Shown: positions 7,845 to 37,900 of the stretch, in pieces
Numbering within the stretch: the first letter of the stretch is position 1
How the letters are laid out: each line of letters starts with the position of its first letter
Assembly (NCBI GenBank): GCA_033220425.1
Contig: CM065651.1
Location: 2,976,001 to 3,040,000 of the forward strand
Direction: 5' to 3'
Length of the DNA: 64,000 nt
From: Lepraria neglecta
Taxonomy: Eukaryota; Ascomycota; Lecanoromycetes; Lecanorales; Stereocaulaceae
Position numbers and translations under genes: made by a program
Notes under the pieces: generated by a model
Told to the model about the DNA's origin: nothing
Database searches by the model: none
Seen by the model: the letters and a program-made list of their open reading frames with translations, nothing else

Positions 7845-8029
7845 TAGGATTAAAGGGGTATAGACCAGTTGCTTTAAATCTAGAATAGATATTTTCAGGG
7901 GTAAATAAGGTATTCTAGGCTTGCCAGAATAGTTAAAAGAAATCCCGTTTAGTAATAGATGAAAAGCCCTGGTATTAATCCATAAATATCGCAAGTTGGT
8001 TTGAATATACCTATAATAATGGCCGAAAC
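7845..8029 (-). mobile_element. pogo-A (Fot1-like DNA transposon), C-terminal transposase piece
   Basis: On the minus strand this 185-bp piece encodes, with a few stops, the conserved tail of Fot1-type transposases: recognisable words are FSSITKRDFF, LFTPENIYSRFKATGLYPF and N-P. It is the direct continuation of the fragment at 20,952-21,156, which breaks off in the LDVCF motif at the far side of Gypsy-C. Gypsy-B cuts it again at 7,844. Identification rests on motifs I recognise in this family, not on a search. Confidence 0.8.
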
Positions 8030-20946: not shown

Positions 20947-20951
20947 GAAAC

Positions 20952-21156
20952 AAACAGACATCTAGGGGCTACAGCGTATATATTAAATATGGCGGATATA
21001 TAGCCAATAGGATCCTATAGGTATCGCAGTAGTCGATAAACTTCATACTAATGTATAATCTATGGCCATCTAGAATTAGGAGCCTCTAAGATCTTTACGC
21101 CTTGGCTTTTGTTTCGCGGTCGAATATTTACGTCAGCCATTAATATCCAAGCTTAT
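20952..21156 (-). mobile_element. pogo-A, middle transposase piece
   Basis: The minus strand encodes remains of the catalytic core of a Fot1-type transposase: FDRETKAKA, then LLILDGH, FIDYCDTYRILLAI and PLDVCF, with stops and small frame changes. It lies between the right TA target of pogo-B and the GAAAC target of Gypsy-C. It links the N-terminal piece (23,745-23,003) to the C-terminal piece (8,029-7,845). Confidence 0.8.
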
Positions 21157-21158
21157 TA

Positions 21159-21206
21159 ACGTAATCTACCCCCAAACGAGACATACCCCCAAACGAGACA
21201 GCGCCC
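21159..21206 (+). repeat. Left terminal inverted repeat of pogo-B (48 bp)
   Basis: Structure: 8 bp, two tandem 17-bp copies, then GCGCCC. Exact reverse complement of 22,953-23,000. Confidence 0.93.
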
Positions 21207-21704
21207 ACCCCGAAATGCAACTAACGTATGAAATATCAACAAATTTCCATAGAATTAAGCTATTTATAACTAGAAATCAAGCTACACGTATCGGACATAC
21301 CCTGGCATTATACTCCAGCGAGCTATATATACTATATCTTAGTAGCGCGCGGCCAGAAGCTTACGCAGTAACTCCGCTCAAAACAGCTTTATCAGCTACT
21401 TAAGCTCTTTTAACTCGATCTTGTCCTTCCTCCGCAGTTAGAACCCCCCTACTAGCTATATATAAGCGAGGAGTTTCTCGCTTGCGCTTTTAACGCGCGC
21501 TTATAGCCTATAGATCCTTGATTTCGCTGGCTAAAAGGGCAGCGTTATATATAGCCATTTAACACCCTTTGACCACCCGCTTCAGTACCTTTTCCGTCAG
21601 ACTTGGGGGGCTTTTTAAACATCGTTTCAGTAACTCCTTAATTATAGTATATTCCTGAGCCAATTAAGCCGCGGTATAGGGTGTTTTGGGGGTTTGGCGG
21701 GCTG

Positions 21705-22919
21705 CTATAGCCGTCTCCGATGCAGGGGGGTAGGCGTTCGTAGCCTGAACTGGAGACGCGATAGGACTCGCTCAGGATTATGTGGCACTAGTCCAGCTGT
21801 AGCAAATCCGCTGTAGATATTCAATGAACTTAGGGCTACTGCGCGGGCAGGTTTAAAAGCCTCTAAGAAGTCAAGCTTGTCGATATAATTGCGTCCAAGC
21901 TGCATATAGATTTCCACCTGATATCTATACGCGCGTTTCAGCGGCGAAAAGCAGCCGATATCCAATAGCTACAGCAGATATGACGAATGCGGTAGCATAC
22001 ACAAGGTTATAATCGCGTTGTCCAGGTAGAATCGATCGAATTCAGGGGTCGCGTGACTTCTATGGCCGTCCAAGATTAGGAGTCGATACTGCCCAATCGT
22101 ACGGGCCTTTGTGTATTCATTGAATACGGTCTGGAGCCAAATCAGGCCAATTTTATCGGTAGTCCACCCATTGTCACTAACAGCAATCGTCTACTGCGGT
22201 GGCAGGGCCTTATACCACGCGGCCTGATGCATTTTGCCCGCGAAAATGATCATAGGGGGCAGGGCCCAGCCATTGGCGTTAATAGCTTCCACGGCTGTCA
22301 CCCATTCTCGATTCCCCGGCTGTATAATTAATGCTTTTCCAGCTCTTTGTAACCCTGTTACCACCTTGGCGGTGCCTATAACCCCCATTTGGAACCCCGT
22401 TTCGTCGAAATTGTAGACGTCTTCGTCCGGGATACCATATTTCGCCCGTGTATTTTCTACGAGCCGAAACCAGTCACCTATGGCTTTAGGGTCCTCGCAC
22501 AAAGCCTGTTGGTAGTCGTACTTCCGTGTATATTTCGATTGGAGCTGCTTATAGCGATTGACGAATTTGCGGACCCAATTTTCGCCCACGGTAGGTGACG
22601 CGTTAGCGGGGGATCCAGCGCGCGCTGAAAGAAGAATATCAGCCATTTTGCGTACAGCAGAAATCCGGGGTGGAAATCCCCGTTCGCCCATAGATATAAT
22701 CTATTGGAAAAGAGCTTCTTCTTCCGTAGGGAGGAGCTTTCGATTTGCTATTCGGGATTGTTGATATATTGGCTACCCACGAAGACGCTTAGCTAAAGTT
22801 GAGCGAGGGACATCGTAGGTACGGGCTGCGGCGCGTATACTTGGGGAATCATTATTATGGATAGCTTCAATGGCTTCGGAGATTCTAGCTTCTTGATCGC
22901 CTTTATGGTTGGGGGGCAT
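21705..22919 (-). pseudogene. pogo/Fot1-type transposase of pogo-B, with in-frame stops
   Basis: The frame starts with ATG at 22,919 (MPPNHKGDQEARISEAIEAI) and shows an N-terminal psq-type helix-turn-helix (SIRAAARTYDVPRSTLAKRL), a CENP-B-type DNA-binding part (about GFPPRISAVRKMADIL to VGENWVRKFVNRY) and a DDE catalytic core. The core carries YNFDETGFQMGV (first Asp), LLILDGHRSHATPEF (second Asp) and, after CMLPHSSYLL, a LLDIGCFSPLK box (third Asp). About four stop codons (TAG/TAA) interrupt the frame, for example after KRLRG, after EALFQ, after KALPPQ and after SSYLL. All catalytic acids are still present. It reads on for about 400 codons to 21,705. A dead but recently active-looking copy; non-autonomous today unless complemented. 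Confidence 0.88.
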
Positions 22920-22952
22920 TTTCGAATTTTGTTGAAAAGACGCGTCGGTGTG

Positions 22953-23000
22953 GGGCGCTGTCTCGTTTGGGGGTATGTCTCGTTTGGGGGTAGATTACGT
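22953..23000 (-). repeat. Right terminal inverted repeat of pogo-B (48 bp)
   Basis: Exact reverse complement of the left repeat, followed by TA. Confidence 0.93.
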
Positions 23001-23002
23001 TA

Positions 23003-23745
23003 TTAGTCCAACCAGATGGCGATAAGGCGAAGAAACAGCTTTGCACGTTTAGATTGAAATCCTGAAGCTATGAATCCTAGATAAGGCCTGTAGTTGCTTA
23101 ATAGATAAGCTCTAGTAATAGAGCTGATCCATCCGCGCATATAGCTGCAATAGTTGTGATCCATTCGCGATTCCCATCCTGAATAAGTTGTTTGATCGAT
23201 CCTTCTTCATAACGCCTGCGGGAAAAAATTCGCTTCATCTTTGAAAGTATTCCCACTAAAAATCCTTTTTCATCCATATTGTATATATACTACGGCTCTA
23301 CCCTATACTGCTCGATTTTCTTCCTTAATAGCTCAAAATATAATGTATATTTAAATACCGAATCTACGCGAGAACGATTATAGTCTAGGCCCATTGTCTA
23401 TTTTGAAACCAGCTTAATATGGTAACGGTGTAGAAAGCGCGAAACCCATTCTTTTCCTATCTCTTTATAGTAGATTTCCTGCGCGAAATTCCAAATCATA
23501 TGTTTGCTAGGTGGTAGGCCGCGCGCGCATAAGCCATCGATATATTTTACTAAGGATTTTTCTTATTGGTTGTTGAGATTTCGTTAGTTTTGATATTGGG
23601 TATTGCGGGATCTAGTTTTGCCGCGATATCGTTTTGATAGGGTAGAACGGTCATATTCGAACTGCTTGGCTATCTTAGTGATATTAATGTGATCGTCTGG
23701 TGATAGGCTATCTATGAAGGCCAGGGCTGCATCTATCGAGCTCAT
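23003..23745 (-). pseudogene. pogo-A transposase, N-terminal piece
   Basis: From ATG at 23,745 the minus strand reads MSSIDAALAFIDSLSPDD, then a helix-turn-helix (ITKIAKQFEYDRSTLSKRYRG), a CENP-B-like part (KYIDGLCARGLPPSKHMI, GKEWVSRFLHRYHIKLVSK) and the start of the DDE core (YNMDEKGFLVGILSK, QDGNREWITTIAAICADG, ending SPSGWTN). Several stops interrupt it. It is cut at 23,002 by the TA insertion of pogo-B and resumes at 21,156. The element's own 5' terminal repeat should lie just right of 23,790, perhaps near 23,800-23,850, but its partner end is outside the window, so I cannot place it. Confidence 0.85.
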
Positions 23746-24072
23746 ATTGGTGGAGGTGTATACGGTGGAAGATATGGTGGAAAATGTCAAAATCGTGCAT
23801 CAGGTGGGGCCGTGCACCAGATGACGTAAGCCGGTAGCCGATAGGGCTGATCGATGGAAGTTGCCTGAAGGCAAGCAAGGTATGCCTGCAACAGAGCTAT
23901 CTAATTACCTTGGACCTCTTTTACAATGACACCTAGTTAAGATTTAGCTGGGATCGAGAGACTCTTTGAGTGACAACCACGATCAGATTACCTGCCGCGG
24001 TCTCCTGGGGTCTCTGAATTCTTCCCGTTGTATCTGACTCAACGTGGCTGCGGACCTCTGGCTCCTCTTTCA

Positions 24073-27000
24073 ATGTCGCAAAGCTACCCATCTCAAGCCG
24101 CTACGACGATGTGCAGCAGAGGCACTGTCAAGACCACAGGCCTCAACATTTGGGTCAGCGGTGGGCACAATCATAACGGACCTGAAGTAGAGTAAGACGA
24201 GCAATCCTTCATGAAGCCCAAGCAGCACCATTAACAAGCGTTGCAGCGTTGTTGCAGTTCAAGGCCTTGGCGCCCATCCATACTATACATGGGTGGGGAG
24301 GCAGACTCCTGTCGAGGAGGTGAAGCCTACACATCGTCACCGACTCAATTATTTTAGACGCCGCGAGAAGAATGCCCAGGCTGACGGACTCCCTCATGTC
24401 GCTCAAACGGCATCCGGCGCTGAAGAAGTGATGTGGCTTCGAGACCTCTTGCCAGATCTAATTCCAGATGCTCGGATTATGACATACAGTTACGAATCTG
24501 ACTGGCGCAGAGCGGACGTCAAAACAAGTCTACGCAAATGTGGAGAGCAGTTGCTCAACGTGCTTCATCAGAATCGGTCAACCGAGAAGGTCGGTAGGAT
24601 TTCTCCGGGTGTTCTTCATTCATTATCACTAAGAATCACTATAGGAGGGTCGACGACCGCTGGTGTTTATTGGACATAGCCTCGGAGGTCTGATCATTAA
24701 AACGGTCCGTGCGGTTTTGGCGCGAATTCCCCCTGTACTAAGCTCTCCACAGGCGCTAGTGTTGGCCGATCATGGTAATACTTTCAGAGATATTCGGTTG
24801 TCCACGGCTGGGATCATCTTTCTTGGAACACCACATCAAGGAAGCGAGGCCGCAGTGTATGGTGTATGGCTTGCTCAGGCAGTGGGACACGATAAGGCGT
24901 TGCTCAAGTCCCTCAGAAGAAATAGCCCTGCTCTTCATGACATTGCGCGGGACTTTGAGGCGAGCTACAGTAATGCCGATATCGTTTGCTTTTACGAAGA
25001 CAAAGACGCGTCGTACGGACCCTGGCGGACTCAGGTGTGCTGACTCCTGCCTTTACACTCGACTGACTGTGAGAGCTTACGACACACACAGTTTGTTGAT
25101 CACCAGTCAGCCTCCTTGCACGGGAAAAGAGCAGTTTATCTCACTACGGATCACTCGGGGTTGAACAAATTTCGTGGCCCCGAAGATGAAAACTTCCTCT
25201 TGGTGCGGCCAGAGATCCAAAGAATAGTTCAGACGGCGCCCCGAAGGATCGAGGAACGATACCGTTGTACGGTCCCTCTTCTCTATACCCCCAACTTTAT
25301 GTTTTTGAAAGCTCCTCTGACTTCTCAGAAGCACACGCCGTAGGTACCGAAAAAGAGTCCTTCCGCGTGGACTTTAGTCTCCAGGGCATCCCTGTGGTGA
25401 AAAAATTTGTGGCGCGGAACGCGGAGACGACGCGATTGACACAAGCTTTGCTTCCCACCTCGACCGATCAAATGCGTCGTAAAGTATTCATCGTTCATGG
25501 GCTTGGTGGGATTGGGAAGACCCAGCTCTCCGTTGAATTCACTCGAAAATATCAAGGGAGCTACAGCGCGGTCTTCTGGATCGATGGCTCGAGCAAGGAG
25601 CGATTGAGGCGAAGCATCGCTGACCTCGCCAGCCGACTGCCACAGCATCAGCTTTCAGAAGGAAGCAGAAATTACTCACAAAACGGGAGCGCTAACGCTG
25701 ATGAAGTTGTTGAAGACGTGCTCAAATGGTTATCACAGACATCAAACGACCAGTGGTTACTGATCTTTGACAACGTGGACCGAGAGTTTTCAGTCCCATC
25801 GAGAGATCCGGAAGCCTTCGATGTGAAAGAATATTTCCCAACAGCAGACCAAGGATCTATTCTTATCACTTCTCGACTTGCGAGTCTGTGGCAGCTGGGA
25901 ACGGATATAAAACTAGAGCCCGTGAATGCACTGCAAGGACAAAGTATCCTAGAGAATAGCCTCGGACGATCAGTGGAAGGTGAGTGCAATTGAAAGCATA
26001 CTTGTTCGAACCCTATCTGACGTCTAGGGGATATTAGGTTCATTAGAGCTCGTCAACCTACTTCAAGGTCTCCCTTTGGCGATCAACCAAGCCGGATCAT
26101 ACTTACGAAATACAAACACTAGTGTGCATGAGTACATCGAATTGTACGATCAAACATGGGAAAGATTAATGAGGATGCAGCATCGTTCCATGTTGCGAGA
26201 AGATGCAGATCGCAGCATCCTCACGACATGGACGTTGTCATTCAATTCCCTCCGATCACAAAGTGAGGACGCAGCCAATCTCTTGATGCTGTGGGCATTT
26301 CTCCATAATCAAGATCTCTGGTATGAGCTTCTTAGGCCTGCACTCGATCTTGAAATTGCCGACAAAATGCCTAGTTGGTTCGCCAGGTGTGCAGGTGACA
26401 AACTTGATTTCAAGGAGTGCATAGGACTTCTGTTGGAATACTCCTTCATCGATGCAAAACTCGAATCATCTTCTTTCTCCATGCATACTGTGCTTCATCA
26501 TTGGTGCTTTCACGCATTTGAAGAAGACAAGGCTACTATGAGCTGGCTCGCCGTGGTCATCGTTGCGTCCGCTGTGCCTTCAATGACCGTGCTCCATTAT
26601 TCGCTTATACAGAGACGTCTCCTTCCACATTGTGATCAAGTCTACTTAATGCTGCAGCGACATTCACAAGAAGCCTTCAAGAATAGGGAATACCTCCTGT
26701 CCCTTAGCGGCGCATGTCACAAGCTAGGAAATCTGTACTCCGATCAAGGCAAGATGAAAGAGGCCGAAGACATGTTCCTGCGGGCATTGGCAGGATACGA
26801 AAAGGCCTGGGGTCCTGAGCACACGTCGACGCTTGGCACGGTCAACAATCTAGGCCTTCTATACTCGGATCAAGGCAAGATAAAAGAAGCCGAAGATATG
26901 TACCTGCGGGCATTAGCAGGATACGAAAAGGCCTGGGGTCCTGAGCACACGTCGACGCTTGGCACGGTCAACAATCTAGGCCTTCTATATAAGGATCAAG

Positions 27001-28511
27001 GCAAGATAAAAGAAGCCGAAGATATGTACCTGCGGGCATTAGCAGGATACGAAAAGGCCTGGGGTCCTGAGCACACGTCGACGCTTGACACGGTCAATAA
27101 TCTAGGCCTTCTATATAAGGATCAAGGCAAGATAAAAGAAGCCGAAGATATATTCCTGCGGGCATTAGCAGGAAGGGAAAAGGCCTGGGGTCCTGAGCAC
27201 ACGTCGACGCTTGGCACGGTTAATAATCTAGGAATTCTATACTCGGATCAAGGCAAGATGAAAGAAGCCGAAGATATGTTCCTGCGGGCATTGGCAGGAT
27301 ACGAAAAGGCCTGGGGTCCTGAGCACACGTCGACGCTTAACATAGTTAATAATCTAGGAAATCTATACTCGGATCAAGGCAAGATGAAAGAAGCCGAAGA
27401 TATGTACCTGCGGGCATTAGCAGGAAAGGAAAAGGCCTGGGGTCCTGAGCACACGTCGACGCTTGACACGGTCAATAATCTAGGAATTCTATACGAGGAT
27501 CAAGGCAAGATGAAAGAAGCCGAAGATATGTACCTGCGGGCATTAGCAGGAAGGGAAAAGGCCTGGGGTCCTGAGCACACGTCGACGCTTGAGACGGTCA
27601 ATAATCTAGGCCTTCTATATAAGGATCAAGGTAAGATGAAAGAGGCTAAAGACATGTACCTGCGGGCATTGGCAGGATACGAAAAGGCCTGGGGTCCTGA
27701 GCACACGTCGACGCTTGACACGGTCAATAATCTAGGCCTTCTATATAAGGATCAAGGTAAGATAAAAGAGGCTGAAGACATGTACCTGCGGGCATTGGCA
27801 GGATACGAAAAGGCCTGGGGTCCTGAGCACACGTCGACGCTTCACACGGTCAACAATCTAGGCCTTCTATACTCGGATCAAGGCAAGATAAAAGAAGCCG
27901 AAGATATGTACCTGCGGGCATTAGCAGGATACGAAAAGGCCTGGGGTCCTGAGCACACGTCGACGCTTGACACGGTTAATAATCTAGGCCTTCTATACTC
28001 GGATCAAGGCAAGATGAAAGAAGCTGAAGATATGTTCCTGCGGGTATTAGCAGGAAAGGAAAAGGCCTGGGGTCCTAAGCACACGTCGACGCTTCACACG
28101 GTCAATAATCTAGGAATTCTATACAAGGATCAAGGCAAGATGAAAGAAGCCGAAGATATGTACCTGCGGGCATTGGCAGGATACGAAAAGGCCTGGGGTC
28201 CTGAGCACACGTCAACGCTTGGCACGATTAATAATCTAGGCCTTCTATATAAGGATCAAGGCAAGATAAAAGAAGCCGAAGACATGTACCTGCGGGCATT
28301 GGCAGGAAGGGAAAAGGCCTGGGGTCCTGAGCATAAGCAGGCCTTAGACACGAGGTATAATTTGGGACGACTTTACAAGGCAAGGTCCATGTTCGGCAAT
28401 GCGGTACAGCTGTTCGAGCTTGTCGTACAAGGCTATACAAAATTGTTAGGCCCAGAACATGGCGAGACCCTTGAGGCCTTGAATCAACTGGAAAATTGCG
28501 AAGTCGATTAG
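24073..28511 (+). CDS. Fungal NLR: SesB-like hydrolase, NB-ARC, TPR repeats
   Basis: Seven exons give 1,362 residues: 24073-24191, 24247-24589, 24645-24704, 24753-25034, 25092-25266, 25344-25979, 26038-28511. The N-terminus is an alpha/beta-hydrolase effector of the SesB/DUF676 kind: VAVQGLGAHPYYTW, nucleophile elbow GHSLGG (Ser166), FLGTPHQGS, and TTDHSG (His289). NB-ARC follows with P-loop GLGGIGKT (about 379-386), Walker B LLIFDNVD, GSILITSR and GLPLA, then a winged-helix part. From about residue 757 come kinesin-light-chain-type TPRs of 42 residues. Such proteins are cytosolic self/non-self or pathogen sensors that trigger cell death in fungi; that role is inferred from the family. The start is the first ATG in frame with a clean GTAAGA splice; exon 3 and exon 5/6 borders use weaker splice sites. 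Neighbours are transposons and a DUF3435 recombinase. The hydrolase and NB motifs all look intact. Confidence 0.85.
26729..28330 (+). repeat. Near-identical 126-bp tandem repeats coding TPRs
   Basis: The word GCCTGGGGTCCTGAGC recurs every 126 bp from 26,804 to 28,316 (13 occurrences). Each unit codes a 42-residue TPR (AWGPEHTSTLxTVNNLG). Units are almost the same at DNA level; changes cluster at a few codons (after STL; N-L-G-x-L-Y; x-D-Q-G-K; ALAG-x-EK). The last units diverge (HKQALDTRYNLG). Confidence 0.95.
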
Positions 28512-30525
28512 AAGAGAAGAAAGAGGTGTCGTGGTTCACGCTAAAGCAGCTTGATTCTGCATCATTATAGGACAGGTAGTCTGCCCTACCATTCGACACT
28601 AATAAAAACCCGTTTAGTGTCAGAGGAAGGCTGTTTCCGTCGCAATTGAGTCAACTTGGTAGCAGCCCAGAGAAATTTCTGAAGGAAGAAGCGTAGAGCA
28701 CGATGAGTCAATGTGATTATGACGCTTATGATATGGATCGGGTTTCTGGAAGGCACCGTCGACGATTTGAGAGCGCCAGACACTTCATTCCGCAGATTGC
28801 TCCTCGGCTTGTTCCTCAAGATAAAGAAGAATTATATATCTGTGTAGTCGACGGAGGCATTGAGGCTCCTTTGTAATCCGGCACCATATATACTTGCGAG
28901 GTTATTTGGTTAAGGAAAACAGTTTTGCGAGTTTTGATTTACGATTAAAAACTTCTATATTGACACTAAGATTATTGTACAAATATCTCCAAACTATTTT
29001 TACCTGCCCCAAATAATACTTACCGGGAAAGGCGGAAACGGAGGTTGAAAGAATCGAGACGGGAGTTCTATTCATATATTGTTGGCTAGGTCCTAATTAA
29101 ATCTAAACAACCAACAGAGAAGTGAAATAGCAACTCTAAGTGAAAAGTAATAAAAGGTAAGAGACTTCGCAGAGCCTTTTGAGGTCTCTGCTATTATGAA
29201 TCTGCGTTGTGTAAGATATAGAACTTGTCGTCGTTCAAGGACATACCCCTTCGAAGATCAGCTGTCCTATCATATTATATCAAATTATTACCCGTAGGAT
29301 ACTATAACCGGGACTCCGCAAGCGCCCTCCTAGGATCCTAACCTTCGATATATGACTCTCAGAGACGAGTTAGCTTCTTAACTTACGGCGGACTCCCCGT
29401 CGGCTAAAGGTTTTCGGCTCCTACGCCTAAGTCTTAAGGTAAAGCTCCTAACCTATACTACCTATCGAATCAGTACAGCTTATGACGTTCAGGCATGCTT
29501 ACCAACGTGGCATATTTAACTTATACGGAGTGCCCTCTCTGCTTATCCTTTGCGGATGAAGTTCGTTATGATTATCTCTTGTAACGAAGACCGGGGGATT
29601 AGTTCCCCCCTATCCCGTCCAGTTAGACATACTTTTGTGAACTCCCCTATAGAGACCTATTCTTGGGCGCCAAAATACGAAAATTGAAGGAGTAAATGGA
29701 AATCCTGCTGATGCGGCTAATAGACTTCGCTAATGGCAGAATATCTTCTTGACTCTTTTGTAACCAGCCGTTAGATACGTTTTCGATGATATAGAAAGTA
29801 CTCTACTCCTTTAGGAGCCCTACCCCTTCGTTCCCGTGTGACGGTTGAGAGATTGTTCTTGACCTAGGCGAGTGAATAGTGGAGATATATTGCATCTTCA
29901 TTCCGGCTCACGGGATCATACGTCCGCAGCGCTTGCACCAGATCTCTGGTAAGCCTTCACCTTTCTGTCTTAGTTCCGTGGGTGCCTGATTTATATTGCT
30001 CTTTTTTAAAGCTTGGCACCTGGATGAATAGCGGATCAAGCGTTTCATTGGACGGAGACGGTGCCGAGGTAGGTGACGCACTGCACCAACCTACCTTCGC
30101 TCGTATCATAGATCTCCGACTTTACCAGCAGTTCACGAAGCTCAGGTGTCCCATAGACCTGTCGAGCAGTTTTCTACCCCGCAGCAGGTGAATCTGCAGG
30201 CTCATCTCAGACTCACCAGTGAGAGTGAGCCGCATGGTATTCAACATGCAAGGTCACCTTTATGTTGTATGGCGTCTTAAGGATGGCCAGAAGATAACAG
30301 GCAATCAATTGTCCACACACTCTGCTCGACTTTAGAATCGCCGCCTCACAAATTCGCGGCAGTAGGTCTACATCAAATTTCTTTGTCTTTTGAAGAATTT
30401 GTTAGACGGGCCGATCGGAGTAGCCAAGACGCTGAGTGTAGACAATTGATCTCACGCCAGAATGGTAAGACGACCTTAACAAATCTAATGCATATGGACT
30501 ATTGCAATAATGATATAAGATCAGA
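28512..30525. other. Long non-coding stretch, no gene recognised
   Basis: No supported gene. About 28,900-29,700 is AT-rich with a TpA-rich, RIP-like look (possible old repeat relic, family not recognised); 29,780-30,500 has normal composition but only short open frames. Confidence 0.5.
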
Positions 30526-30954
30526 TTGGATTCCGGTGCCCTAGATCAGCGTCTCGACGCCCTAAGTAGAGATCTCAACACCACCAATCAGAATGTAAAC
30601 AACCTCAGTCACCGTCTCGACATCACCCGTCAAAGCGTAAATGACGTTAATCAGCGCCTTGAAGGTATCAACCAGGATCTCGAGCGGCGGCTTCATGATG
30701 TTAATCAGAGTGTCAACAACCTCAGCCAGAAACTCGACACCACCAATGAGAATGTCAATAACCTCAACTTACGCCTCGAAAACACCATTCAGAATGTCAA
30801 CAATCTCAACCTACGTCTTGAGAACCTCATTCAGAACGTCAATAATATCGATATCGATCAGCGTCTTCAAGCCGCCAACCAAGATCTTAATCGACGTTTC
30901 CGTCGCCTCTCTAACAGAGTTGACCATTTACAAACCTCCTGTACCATTCTGTGA
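30526..30954 (+). CDS. Asn-rich coiled-coil repeat protein, 3' exon or remnant
   Basis: An open frame of about 140 codons encodes a regular 14-residue repeat of the form NxNVNNLxxRLExx (two heptads), for example NVNNLSHRLDIT, NVNNLNLRLENT, NVNNLNLRLENL, ending DLNRRFRRLSNRVDHLQ. A continuous amphipathic coiled coil is expected over nearly the whole length. No ATG is in frame; a stop lies 12 bases upstream of the first codon used, so an upstream exon joined at an AG near 30,524 is likely, with a GTAAG donor at about 30,466 as one candidate. Function unknown. The repeat sense and lack of stops argue for real coding sequence. Confidence 0.45.
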   Translation: MDSGALDQRLDALSRDLNTTNQNVNNLSHRLDITRQSVNDVNQRLEGINQDLERRLHDVNQSVNNLSQKLDTTNENVNNLNLRLENTIQNVNNLNLRLENLIQNVNNIDIDQRLQAANQDLNRRFRRLSNRVDHLQTSCTIL

Positions 30955-31482
30955 AGTAAAAATTACGAGCACGACTACATGAGAACAGCCGAGTCTTTTC
31001 TGGAAGGCGAAGACAATGACGGTGAAGGGTCAAGTTGCCCACTACTTTGCTGTGAACCATGCCGAGCGATACTTAAACGTGCCACCTACCGCCTTCCCCG
31101 AGAAAGGTCTCTTGAGAGCCGGGCGTGACAAAGGAAGACCTCGCTGTAGTCCTCGTATGATTCGCGATCTTTCGCTCCGGATATACAAGGAAGCATTGCA
31201 TTATACTCAAGCTCTCTTCAATTTATAGAAGGGACCTTGACAGGCGCAACTGTGGTGTCATCAGGCTTATCACATTTCAAAAGACAAATCTTAATAGATA
31301 TTATCATCTCTTTATAACGTCAACAATAGCAAGCTGATAGAGGTACACCAAGGATGGACGTATTAGTTTTTGAACTATCGCTGAGAAGAAACATGTGACG
31401 AGGAACGAAATGCAGGACGCGAGAGGGGTCTACGCACGCAAAAAGATTTTGTGCACCGTCGCCGTATGATTCTTGAAACCCA
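30955..31482. other. Intergenic, nothing recognised
   Basis: Only short open frames. Lies between the coiled-coil ORF and the stop codon of the DUF3435 gene, so it should hold the latter's 3' UTR. Confidence 0.4.
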
Positions 31483-34111
31483 TCACACTGGGCAGGACCA
31501 GTCCGCTGCCTTGCACTGTGGGTGCGGACACGGGACCTGATCCTTGGGGGTGTACTTCTTCAAGTGCTTCTCAACCTCATTCATCATCTTGTTGGGTTTG
31601 GCGTACTCGTAGACCCGACCTTGGTAGGATAGCCTTTCGTCACCCAGGCGGAACAGACTTTGGGTGGGCCGGCAGACCATAGGGAAATCAGCGTTCGCGT
31701 CCTCTTCGGACTCATTCACCGCACCTTCCGACTCCTCTTGTTTGACAGTGGACTTGGGCCGACCGCGGCGCTGGGTTTCCCGCCGATCGCATAAAGCCGC
31801 TCTGGCTTCGATGACCTGGATTCTCCGCCGGAGCTTTTCTCGATCGCTCAGACCATCGCCAGGACTGCAGGTCAGTCGGACCACCTCAGCTCGCTCGGGG
31901 ATGTTGTATTCGATCGGCTTCGCGGGGTGGGTGTCTGGTGTAACCATGTGAGCGGCTGCGGTCGCGGTAAATTGAGCGTCAAAAGCCAGAGTATCAGCCT
32001 TCCGGAAGTGTCGTTTGCGGGCTTGCACGATCATGTGATTTCGTAGTTTGATTTTGAAACAACTCAACCGGGCTTCGGCCTTTTTCTTCTTATTAAAAAG
32101 GGGAGTCCCTTTGGCATCGCCGATGGTGTTGTATCCGGTGGCGTGGATGCGCGTCGTCAGAGCTTTGTTTCGTTGGCCGAGGTGAATCACTTGAGAGTGT
32201 TGTTTCAACTTGGTCTTCTGCTCGGACGACAGCTCCATCGGGGCGCTCGCGTCGGCCGTCAAACTAGCAAGCCTGGCCATCTTTTGGACCACCTCGTTGG
32301 ATGGCTTCCCGAGGTAGCAGGATTCAGTGTCAAGCCGGATCTCCTGGTCCAGATAGTAACCGACTGCTCCTTGCTGGTGGTCAAAGAGTTGATCCCGGAC
32401 AGACGCGGGAGCGCTGTCTATAGATAGCGTATGGGATCAGTATTGGACCGATAGTTTGGAAGCAAATAGGAAGCGGGAATCAAGGCCAGACGTACTGTTG
32501 ACGACATTCAGGAGGCCACGTCGGAGCCCATACTGGGTGAAAGCATGTTCGAAGCCCGCCTTCTGCCCGAGACGCTTGAGGTAAGTGATCCACGTGCTCG
32601 CACGCAAAGGTGCCGTTGGCGACGTGCCCACTGCACCCGCACCGCGCAACGGCTCACGGAAGACCGGAAGATCCAGAACTTGACGTTTCCATTTCAACGT
32701 CAAGCTCTTCCTGCCTGGCGGTATCTGCACCCGAAACATATTCTCGACGTTTTTCGCGGACGTAGCTTCGAAAGCATCACCGCGCACCGCGAGAGATATA
32801 AAGTGATCGAGGAGGGAGAACAGCGGATCATCGTCTCCTCCACCGATGACCAACGTTTTTCTGCAAAGTATGTAGGTCAGCCATGGATCAGCGTCAGTTG
32901 GAGGGGACGGGTGGCATGCAGCTTTGCTCACATTCGTGGATTGTTGTCTTCCCCTTTGGTGTGGAGAAGTGTCGCCTTCATGAAGACCAGGTTGGGTTTC
33001 CCGGGGGTTGGATTGGCAACGATGCTGATGGTGAAATGGCGATACAGGAACGATCGAGTTTCTTCGGGTCCGGCATCACAATCGTCGTCGGTGTCGCAAT
33101 CCTCATCGCAAACATAAAGCGAGCCGGAATCGCTGTCGCTGTCGCTATCGCCATTCCAGGCGGTGTTGGAATCGCGGTCAACTTTGAGGGCAGCATCGAT
33201 AGACATTCCAGTATCACCATCCCGGTGGCTCTTCGCGTGATTGCTTTCGTCCATTTTGACATCGTTCGCAGCTTTTCTGGCCCTTTGGGCACTGGCGACC
33301 GCTGTGTCGTCGGTGGGCACGTCCGAGTCATCGGGCTCGTCGAGCTTGACTCGAGTGTCGAACAATGAACACGGTCGGCAACCGAAAAAAGCGGCCATAA
33401 GTAAACCGGTGGCAACTTGAACTCGCTGCCGCTCATCCTTAAATGTCGAATCATCGAGCATCCAATGTGTGTAGAGGAGAAGGTAGAGATCGTCAAGGCC
33501 GATGACCGGTTTCTTCTTGGGCGTGGTGCGAAGGCCATACTCATCGATGAGCACATTGATGTACTGGCACATCCGAGACGTCAGCGTGGAGCTTCCCAAG
33601 CCCGCAAGAATCAGCATCTCACATTTTTGATGTCCCTTCTCTCGCGTGGATCGAAGTCTCGATCCGCCTTGTCGAGGGCATGCATTCTCAGAACCCGCCA
33701 GTAGTTCTTCAAACTTGAAGCCACGCCGATTCTGTTGTAGCGATCCATCGTCCATTTCCAAAATATTTTGAAGTCTGGCACTTGTGCGTCTTCGAGGAAA
33801 GTTCCAGGATTGTAGCCAAGTTCGCCGCAAAACCCAGATAGTGATTTCATTAGCGACGGCAACCACAGACTTCGATGGAAGATGAATTTCCTCTTCCACT
33901 TCTTCAACACTGATGCCAGGCTCTTGGTCGTGTTGTCAGCAACCTTTGGCTGAGTCTTCCCTTGTGCGGCGAGCTGTGCGCGCTGCTCAATGTAAAAGCT
34001 CGGTGGTAACCTGCCCTTTTTGCGCTGTGCTCGTCCCATACTGTTGACCTGAGTGATGTATGACTGCTGTGGCGAACGAGCAGGGGGCCAAGAAAGGGAA
34101 TCCCAGGTCAA
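31483..34111 (-). CDS. DUF3435 tyrosine recombinase (Starship captain-like)
   Basis: Four exons on the minus strand, 34111-33623, 33563-32932, 32860-32496 and 32417-31483, give 806 residues in one frame; introns of 59, 71 and 78 bp have GTGAGA, GTGAGC and GTACGT donors. Tyrosine-recombinase boxes are visible: GLLMAAFFGCRPCSL (Arg226), the box QYGLRRGLLNVVN (Arg487/488), LFDHQQGAVGYYLDQEIRLD (His509, candidate nucleophile Tyr516/517). After this come the basic coil typical of the family and a C-terminal CPHPQC zinc-ligand-like motif (792-797). An acidic Ser/Asp-rich insertion (about residues 240-330) lies between the first Arg box and the rest. DUF3435 proteins move giant Starship elements by site-specific integration and sit at the element's 5' edge, reading inward. 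Here that would place the body of the element to the left. No frameshift or stop is needed, so the gene may be functional. Confidence 0.82.
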
Positions 34112-34582
34112 GATGGCTCTAGGGTTGACTGCGAGGTGGTCACTGGGATGAAGGATGATAGCGGCGCGGGCAAATGATATAAGTGAAGTCCTGCTTCACT
34201 GATGGAAATGAGGGGATGAACGAAATGAGGGTAAGAGGTGGGCTCCAGGCCTCACTTATGTTCGTTGCCTCACAGAGACTTGCTTGAAGGAAGGAACGAT
34301 GGTTTGGAGGGGGAGAGCCAGAAAGGCAATGCGCGAAGATTCCAGCAGGGATCCGACAGGGGTCCTCGGCGGTGCCTTTTTTTAGCGCTAAGGTCATCGG
34401 TGTTTAATTCAGCCGATCTCCGAACCAGCCTGCGTGGTACTTGAGCTGCTTAAAGCAGCTGCCAGACCATCTCTTTTCGGCCACCTCGGTACCTGAAAAT
34501 ATATATTGATGTAATTTATGAGTTAATCACGTCGTTTTAAGTTCAAAATATGTAATAGCTTTTACCGTCATTCCCTAATTGA
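34112..34582. other. Region upstream of the captain-like gene; candidate Starship 5' edge
   Basis: 471 bp between the DUF3435 start codon and a tRNA gene. It changes from GC-balanced to AT-rich near 34,490. No gene. I see no convincing terminal repeat or target duplication, because the other end of any element is not identified. Confidence 0.4.
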
Positions 34583-34670
34583 GCTGTGATGGCCGAGTGG
34601 TTAAGGCGTCTGTCTTAAGTCAGATTAACAGATGGAATATTCCGCGCAAGTTCGAACCTTGCTCACAGCA
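34583..34670 (+). tRNA. tRNA-Leu (anticodon UAA), with a putative 7-nt intron
   Basis: Acceptor stem GCTGTGA/TCACAGC with discriminator A; D arm GCC-GAGTGGTTAA-GGC; T arm GCAAG-TTCGAAC-CTTGC; a variable arm GGA-ATAT-TCC marks a type II (Leu/Ser) tRNA. The loop CTTAAG places UAA at the anticodon. The anticodon stem pairs perfectly (TCTGT/ACAGA) only if seven bases after position 37 are left out, so a tiny intron at the usual 37/38 site is likely. Internal A box TGGCCGAGTGG and B box GTTCGAACC are present. An oligo-T terminator follows. Confidence 0.85.
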
Positions 34671-34949: not shown

Positions 34950-37900
34950 CTAGTTTGTGTTACAACCAACCTGCAAGACCCTTGGAAAGACTCCAAGGCT
35001 ACGCGTGCAAAGATCTATTTCGAGATTAGGAGGAGGTTGCGGAACCAAAATATCGATGTTTCAAGCCTCCATCCCAATATCCTACTCTTTTTACCGACGT
35101 CGCAGAAAAATTCAGATTGGTGGCGCAGATTACTGCAGGAGCCAATCCAAGTGTCTGACGATCAGCTAAAACGCCTCTTCAAATTAAGGGAATCGGTCAA
35201 GAATTCGTCCGCACATACAAGCTGAAAGTGAAACAGCTTCACTACATTATCGCCAAGTGGGAATACCAGGGCCGTTACTACAGCGAAAGCATCGAGTGGG
35301 CAAAGATAACAGAGTCTTTGGACCCTAGTGATTTTATGTTCATTCGGTACATCGGTATGACAACTCGTACTGGCATCGAGCGGTACATCGAAGACAAGAA
35401 TCGCACGTTTGGGCTTCTACCGACGTTCTTAAGAAGCCTGTATGATTTCTTTGAGTCTCCTGAAGAGCTATGCACGTGTTATGGATTCGTTGACAGCACT
35501 CTGGAAGACCTTGTCTCAGAACCATCAGGAGATCTCAAGGAAAAATCATTGATCGCATTGTTTGGCCATCTCTCATTGCTGAATAAGCAACATGGTGGGT
35601 TTCTCAATGATTATGTCCCCTCGAGCCACGAAAAGTCATTGTTTCTCTCCCTGAGGACAAATGCGTTTGAGCTGCTAGACAAATGTGATGAAAGAGCTCA
35701 ACATCGAAGGGCCTTGCAGCATTGGACGGAAAGGATGCAGGCGTATGCCAACGAAAACGCAGACTTGACCGGTACAAACAGAATTCCGTTCTCCGACGCA
35801 TACAGAAACCGGGTTCTAAGTCAAGGACTGCCTGTTGTCATACTCGAAAAGTTCAGTCTACTCGTTTTCGTAGCCGAGCATGCTCCAATGCTAGAACTCA
35901 TTGAGGCTTATGGATTTTGGGATGGCGGAAGTGCAGCAACCACCCTATTAAAGAAATCCCTCTCTCGACTATCAGCATGGGAGAATGACAGATCGATCCC
36001 CAACGAAGACGATGCAAAAACTGGTAGTACCAAGTGTCGAATCCCAGTTGTTGATGTATGGAACTGGCTCAAACATTATGACGCCAAAGAGGCCTTCTCA
36101 TTTATCGGACAATACATGGGAATTTCGGACCCTCTAATAACAGTATGTCTAGAGCTGTCGCAGCGCTTCTTCACAAGTTCAGAATGTTGGCCAGTCTTCC
36201 ATTGATACGAAGACGAATTGAGCTTTGTGGGAAGTTGGAAATTGTCAACTACGATGATGACGAGAAACAGCCCTGGGCTATCATGATCTCGTGCATTCAT
36301 CCTGGGATGGACATGTATAATCCTCACCACGTGTCAACACGACAGGACTTGGAAATCACATTGTGGATCGTTCTCTTGACTGTCTCAATCGCTGGAGAAG
36401 AATTCACCAAAGCTTCAACAAAGACACGCCTGCAAAGATTGGGTGAGATTATGTTGCGCGTCCATGAAACGCTCGAAAAGACGGGGGTGTCTGCTGAGCT
36501 GGAGAAAAGAAAGGCAGAGCTAATCCAAGCTCTCGGGGATGCCAGAGCTAACCGCCAAAAGCTCTTGGAACCCCGGCTGAAAGTAGGCTTGAAGGAATTT
36601 GGCCCTATACAAATGCAGGCCGTGGTAGGCGAATTCCAAAATCGACCCTAGTACTCTCGCTGATGCTTGAAAGCGGCGTATAGTAGAATGCGGAGTTGCG
36701 AAAGGCCCGAAAAGCTCCTCAGTCAGAACTCAGCAGATTCAATTGCTATAGTCCTCCGGACTTGATGATCTGCATATTCACGTACCTCGCTCAGGAAAGG
36801 CCAAGTAGGAGGCCAGGGCTAACCAAGTGGGTGAGGGTGGCTCTCATTCACCTGAAGAACACTTCAAGTCCGTTCTGGCCGAATGGCTTCCTCCTCGCCA
36901 TCCTAATACCACTGCTCTCCCACTGTCTTAAGCGGAGCGCCGTGATATAGTCAACTCAGCAATCTCGACTTGGTCTACTTTTATGACTATAGCGGAGGCT
37001 ATGAGAATGTCCCCTTTGCCTAATGCGGTCTATCGAAAGTCATTGAACGGTCATCGCATTCGTATATCGCGTAAGAACACGGCATATCTAGATATCGAGT
37101 CTCCAAGAAGAGAACACTATTCTATCAAATTAAATGTCCCAAAATCAACAATACCTAAAGACGAAGATGATTTGCGGTACATCTGGTTATGAGTAATATG
37201 ACCCCTGAACTTCCTCGTATCACTAAATCTAATGTGTGATTTAGCACTCCCGATGGCATAGACATTCGTACAGAACAGGGGCAGACTTGTAAAAGCTTGA
37301 GAACAGACAGTAACGCTACCTTCGATCTGGCTCGCATGATTCGGGCATGGAGAACGGGTAATGACCCTCTCGCAGGTCAAAAGATTTGGCAGTTATGGGA
37401 GCGAGAGACCGACCTCAATTGCGCTTCAAGTTTAGCAAAATTCTCTGCTTGCAAGCTTCCTTCTCTTGACCAAGATTACTTACCGAGAGCATACTTCACT
37501 GTCCCCATTAAGGCTCTTATTTCTGCGCAAACCGAAATTAACATCGGACCAGGCACGTCAGCTTATCCCCCGCGTTCAGCTGAGGCGATATGGATTCTAG
37601 ACCAATTTCTAAAGTCTTGGCGACCCAATGCTGGCGAGGTCTTTGCTGGAAATCCAAAAAAATGGATACTCGAAAAGGACCCGAGCTTTTGGACTCACTT
37701 TCTACAGTGAGTGGCATTCAATTACTCTTTTCTTTTTCGGACTAACGCAGCTGTTGTTTGAGGTTTACGTATCAGGCCAAGTGGCAACATCACCCTCAAA
37801 TCCTAAATGTTCGAGCTTTGGCATGGATCTACGATGCGATGAGGCTTACTCCTAATCTAAAGTTCCTTCGAGACATTGTGAAACAGTTCAAGGTGGAGTC

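Follow-up and report, generated by a model that had tools for sequence, protein, structure and literature searches.

Probable 5' part of a degraded Starship beside an NLR gene and a transposon nest in Lepraria neglecta

Does a captain-like DUF3435 gene that lies between an NLR gene and a transposon nest on one side and a tRNA gene on the other stand at the edge of a Starship, and how much of the neighboring DNA would belong to such an element? The question arises from the window studied here, a stretch of 64,000 nucleotides of Lepraria neglecta DNA (G000:C6:2,976,001-3,040,000) from an assembly of 42.0 Mb in 11 contigs. Positions below are those of the window, and negative coordinates lie to its left on the same contig (C6). 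We conclude that the locus probably represents the front portion of a degraded Starship whose captain is of a Hephaestus-like subfamily that targets TTAC sites; the 5' end of this element is supported, and its 3' end is a weak candidate.

The captain-like DUF3435 tyrosine recombinase gene occupies positions 31,483-34,039 of the minus strand. Its four exons (34,039-33,623, 33,563-32,932, 32,860-32,496, and 32,417-31,483) comprise 782 codons and are open throughout; the three introns between them measure 59, 71, and 78 bp and have GT..AG ends. The profile PF11917 matched exon 3 (E value of 5.7e-25) and exon 4 (4.7e-20), reached exon 2 with 25.3 bits, which is slightly under the cut-off of 25.8, and had no match in exon 1. 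When residues 1 to 547 were taken together, the PF11917 match had an E value of 1.5e-47, and the second match, to Phage_integrase, was faint (0.22); a PDB sequence search returned a single match at chance level (0.99). The nearest paralogs of this captain are located at C6:4.016 Mb (L004), C4:3.037 Mb (L002), and C6:1.526 Mb (L003). The proteins of these three loci are ~36-55% alike in the aligned stretches, and stop codons are present in them. In all three paralogs, the C terminus continues in frame into a conserved tail, whereas the body and the tail of the window captain lie in different frames. The first-pass annotation had described this gene as looking intact over four exons; the four-exon DUF3435 structure on the minus strand is confirmed but, judged from its reading frames, the captain is not wholly intact. 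In L002, and across two frames in the window, we read the tail as resembling a C-x4-C ... H-x4-H finger; it is altered in L003 and L004. A further captain, at C8:541 kb, resembles that of the window at the 3' end. Similarity to the L003 locus (78%; window 31,264-31,516 against C6:1,525,044-1,525,300) extends ~170 bp beyond the conserved tail into noncoding DNA, an extension that was not seen in the similarity to the other three paralogs compared.

The 5' end of the putative element was recognized through comparison of these paralogs. Positions 34,036-34,500 of the window are alignable as a whole to the upstream DNA of the three paralogs, and the stretch at 34,445-34,485 is 86-89% identical to it (over 41 bp with L004 and over 35 bp with L002 and L003). 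A leave-one-out profile made from L002, L003, and L004 only matched positions 34,444-34,485 with an E value of 2.4e-9 in a search of 264 kb, in which the next best match had a value of 0.89. This terminal box, which is common to the three paralogs, is ~40 bp long and lies ~400 bp upstream of the captain ATG on the minus strand. It had no match below an E value of 0.9 in any of the 12 other captain loci examined (eight upstream stretches along with L006, L007, L008, and L030), out of 18 DUF3435 loci that do not belong to the subfamily. One of the 12 is the C8:541-kb captain (L132): despite the similar 3' end of this gene, no box was found in the 2 kb upstream of it. Homology among L002, L003, and L004 breaks off 20 to 25 bp outside the box. 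At the break, read in the captain sense, L002 and L003 contain TTAC(N7)A and L004 contains TAAC(N7)A, with the final A located 0 to 3 bp from the break itself. The alignment of 5' ends places TTAC(N6)A at the matching position in the window (34,504-34,514 on the minus strand, with TTAC at 34,514-34,511), where the spacer is N6 and not N7. Outside the nest, the region contains one GTAA per 399 bases, so the presence of the motif within one base of the matching position has a probability of ~1%. The outermost ~20 bp of the end in the window depart from the family consensus, as the leave-one-out match covers model positions 22 to 63 only. On the basis of this alignment, the 5' terminus would lie at ~34,504, between the captain and the tRNA gene, and the captain ATG, 465 bp inside it, opens a gene that reads inward. 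An edge between 34,112 and 34,582 with the captain reading leftward from it had been predicted, and the end recognized by its shared box and TTAC motif falls within that interval, which lends the prediction independent support.

This arrangement, in which a DUF3435 captain reads inward from near a 5' end that carries a TTAC-type motif, is like that of Hephaestus-family Starships. The canonical Hephaestus target is given as TTAC(N7)A and that of Nebuchadnezzar as TTACA(N5)AAT (PMC12153272), and the exact Hephaestus motif is present in two of the paralogs, L002 and L003. The window locus differs from Hephaestus in its TTAC(N6)A spacing, and neither a 3' direct repeat nor a TIR is confirmed for it; the likeness is drawn from the target motif rather than from a captain tree. 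Sanctuary (PMC12506042) offers a second comparison. Its captain is of similar length (786 amino acids, against 782) and lies ~350 bp from the 5' edge, a few hundred base pairs as in the window, and NLRs are among the accessory genes listed for its cargo. The R..Y-x-x-R..Y residues follow one another in the same order and with similar spacing; by motif reading only, R202, Y460-x-x-R463, and Y492/Y493 of the window captain correspond to R260, Y424, R427, and Y458 in the residue map of the Sanctuary captain (PMC12506042). Unlike Sanctuary, which spans 170 to 196 kb and has direct repeats and empty sites (PMC12506042), the window locus has a candidate repeat only, and the tail of its captain is out of frame.

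On the right, a tRNA gene predicted by ARAGORN (34,583-34,670, plus strand) is separated by 79 bp from the proposed 5' terminus and so falls outside the element. It had been called a tRNA-Leu beyond the edge, and its position holds, but ARAGORN assigned it no amino acid. In a search of eight captain loci, two of them overlapping, the same program found no tRNA. The tRNA gene was also considered as an attachment site and was rejected, as the 12- and 13-bp matches between it and the nest sit in copies of a repeated transposable element (TE) and cannot be lengthened. Core genes, which had been placed on this side, are shown only from ~49 kb (NADH dehydrogenase subunit G-like); no Pfam family was matched by the nearer gene at 35,159-36,651.

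The NLR gene (24,100-28,511, plus strand; start approximate) lies 3 kb downstream of the end of the captain, on the side where cargo would be and as first annotated. Its product has an NB-ARC domain that scored slightly above the cut-off, 12 to 13 TPR repeats, and a weak, sub-cut-off match to an alpha/beta-hydrolase at the N terminus. The coiled-coil open reading frame that had been reported with it is also present (30,514-30,954, plus strand); it is possible cargo and has ~70% identical DNA at C8:1.46 Mb. We infer that the NLR gene is cargo, although its inclusion in the element depends on the candidate 3' end. Within this gene, positions 26,742-28,333 consist of 12.6 TPR copies of 126 bp each with 92% matches, and these copies are without RIP-like skew, though the genome has heavily RIP-like repeats.

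The association between captains and NLR genes was assessed across the genome. At least 36 exon matches to PF11917, merged with earlier matches, gave 22 DUF3435 loci, which were compared with 51 merged NB-ARC loci, 55 NACHT loci, and the 101 loci obtained when all were merged. NB-ARC genes occurred within 20 kb downstream of 4 of the 22 DUF3435 loci and upstream of none (null expectation of 0.51, P = 0.0013); with the window left out, the downstream count was 3 of 21 (P = 0.0097). NACHT loci were not associated with captains (one downstream, one upstream). For all 101 merged loci, four were downstream and one was upstream (P = 0.017, or 0.065 without the window). Within 30 kb, DUF3723 was downstream of 2 of the 22 DUF3435 loci and upstream of 1. 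The null was uniform, the sizes of two contigs were guessed, and contigs 9 to 11 were left out, and the association is therefore only suggestive. Of the 22 DUF3435 loci, 18 are on the minus strand of the respective contig (two-sided binomial, 0.004), a bias that may reflect the search or chance. One other DUF3435 gene, at C1:4,646,831-4,648,173, has no stops inside its PF11917 matches, with NACHT ~5 kb and NB-ARC ~16 kb downstream; the box of the window was not found there.

These counts bear on the possibility that only the captain and its 5' end survive, the rest of the element having been lost through deletion or rearrangement, so that the NLR gene, the coiled-coil open reading frame, and the genes further left are unrelated neighbors. 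The excess of NB-ARC genes downstream, and not upstream, of captains over the uniform-null expectation argues against such a loss. However, "solo" DUF3435 genes are described as the more usual case (PMC12134995), and in Verticillium, 21% of 556 captain-like genes were in resolved Starships and 79% were unassigned (PMC12289983). The window has no proven 3' end or TIR, and L002 and L003 have their 5' ends in common but share no DNA past the captain 3' end in the 1.6-kb stretches compared. We regard the loss of everything but the 5' end as conceivable, if doubtful.

Left of the NLR gene, the degraded Starship that we favor is interrupted by the transposon nest. A nest had been annotated here, and it is present, but with coordinates that were far too small; it runs from -38,913 to 23,836, with positions 1-23,836 in the window, and its 62.7 kb are contained in a single TIR element of 2,120 bp, here called T. 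From its open reading frames and TA ends, we read T as Tc1/pogo-like. Five collinear pieces of T were recovered (T 1-206, 202-900, 896-1079, 1075-1286, and 1284-2120), two of them left of the window (-38,913 to -38,726 and -7,626 to -6,928) and three within it (7,846-8,029, 20,947-21,158, and 23,000-23,836). The junctions between pieces have 5-bp duplications in three cases (CACGA, AGGAT, and GAAAC) and TTA/TA in the fourth. A second TIR element of 1,841 bp (21,159-22,999), with a minus-strand open reading frame that encodes a Tc5-type helix-turn-helix and a weak DDE match, is inserted in T. Compared with an intact copy, the pieces of T have mainly C-to-T and G-to-A changes, the short left piece excepted. 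GC content across the nest is 0.31 to 0.44 in 4-kb steps, and RIP-like ratios are found nearly throughout, with a weaker signal at the right end (~21.5-23.8 kb). The collinear pieces and the junction duplications indicate that the block is one T insertion at TA followed by later insertions, and so the DNA of C6 up to ~2,937,086 formerly adjoined window position 23,837. The nest had been proposed as Starship cargo; original cargo is ruled out, since the nest grew by serial insertions inside one transposon that was itself inserted separately. Like the nested, RIP-affected TE clusters of filamentous ascomycetes, it combines serial insertions, 5-bp duplications, and an excess of C-to-T and G-to-A changes, and it shows no notable difference from them; here, the nest splits a probable Starship.

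Several further features of the nest were observed. Two inverted copies of a 6.4-kb element, 93-95% identical, lie near its ends (-37,641 to -31,251 and 20,958 to 8,032), and the right-hand copy is interrupted by a 6.5-kb LTR element. Among the matches listed, T was found in six other places in the genome at 94-96% identity, of which three were read. The intact copy at C1:957,830-959,949 (L125) is located ~1.3 kb from the NB-ARC exon (C1:961,252) of the closest NLR paralog (51% identity) and on the same side of it as the T copy beside the NLR gene of the window.

An AT-rich block of this kind could also be the centromere of the contig, which would make the captain and the NLR gene merely pericentric. 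At ~60 kb and with RIP-like composition, the block is near the ~50 to 80 kb of Fusarium fujikuroi centromeres (PMC3694855). This candidate was made unlikely by the sampling of C6: 13 of 99 evenly spaced samples were RIP-like, with this block just one of them, and three neighboring RIP-like samples (0.936, 0.984, and 1.032 Mb) suggest a larger block elsewhere. The descent of the block from one copy of T with insertions also speaks against a centromere, which would leave the 5' box unexplained, and we consider this origin very improbable. The three samples at C6:0.936-1.032 Mb, spaced 48 kb apart, mark a possible centromere of the contig.

The remaining question for a degraded Starship is where its far end lay. 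Directly left of T is a DUF6601 gene (E value of 1.5e-84) that ends at -39,426. Without the T insertion, this gene would lie only ~0.8 kb from the NLR gene, and a small element of ~10.7 to 11.2 kb could have ended between the two, with the captain, the coiled-coil open reading frame, and the NLR gene as its entire content. Such an element would fall below the lower limit of the 15- to ~700-kb range given for Starships (PMC12134995), and direct or inverted repeats above shuffles were not found between the DUF6601 and NLR genes; we consider it unlikely. For the larger degraded Starship, more genes come into question. Left of T are also open reading frames whose translations, in our reading, suggest a RING protein, ankyrin repeats, and a CK1-like kinase that is broken, together with DUF7924 and a triose-phosphate-type transporter that ends at -52,142; FDF-domain and carnitine acyltransferase genes lie beyond the transporter. 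A short direct repeat had been expected at the far end. The 231 kb on the left contain a single copy of TTGATGTAA, which repeats 9 bp of the right end in direct orientation; it lies at -52,132 (C6:2,923,868), 6 bp past the transporter stop codon. It is a candidate for the expected repeat, but 0.05 to 0.07 such repeats are expected by chance (5-7%; the scan covered 24.7 kb, with 74 GTAA sites), and the boundary is not confirmed. The far end may thus lie at -52.1 kb, just past the transporter gene, although this placement is weak. If the repeat is real, it speaks against the loss of all but the 5' end, and the element measures 86.6 kb in total, or ~23.9 kb once the nest is subtracted. No TIR of the putative Starship was found in the zones searched; TIRs, present in 18 of 20 Starships (PMC12153272), are common but not universal and are not a required feature. 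Blind repeat searches for element ends gave nothing above shuffles.

We infer that the element was once mobile and that its captain recognized the box. In the proposed scheme, the captain, a tyrosine recombinase, would have cut and joined DNA at TTAC-type sites, perhaps with recognition of the conserved box that lies a short way in from the 5' terminus, and would read inward over cargo that includes the NLR gene and probably the accessory genes further left. The TIR element T would then have landed left of the NLR gene, retrotransposons and the second TIR element would have piled into it, and the pile would have decayed by RIP-like mutation, its growth separating the front of the Starship from the back. 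A more specific version, which we put forward only tentatively, is that the ~40-bp box, with its nearly fixed spacing from TTAC across captains that are ~36-55% alike, is the captain's own cis-acting binding site and that the locus is a Starship of ~24 kb that carries the NLR gene, ends at -52.1 kb, and is hidden by the 62.7-kb nest.

Starship ends are usually called through strain comparison. Here, comparison of four paralogous captains that belong to one subfamily was enough, within a single genome, to reveal a 5' end and a target-site signature, and other "solo" captains could be assigned in the same way. The nest illustrates that boundary callers can miss a Starship when ordinary TE insertions conceal it. 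If the box is indeed a docking site, each captain subfamily would carry a readable sequence of its own, and the 5' ends of Starships would become callable from a single genome, without strain comparison.
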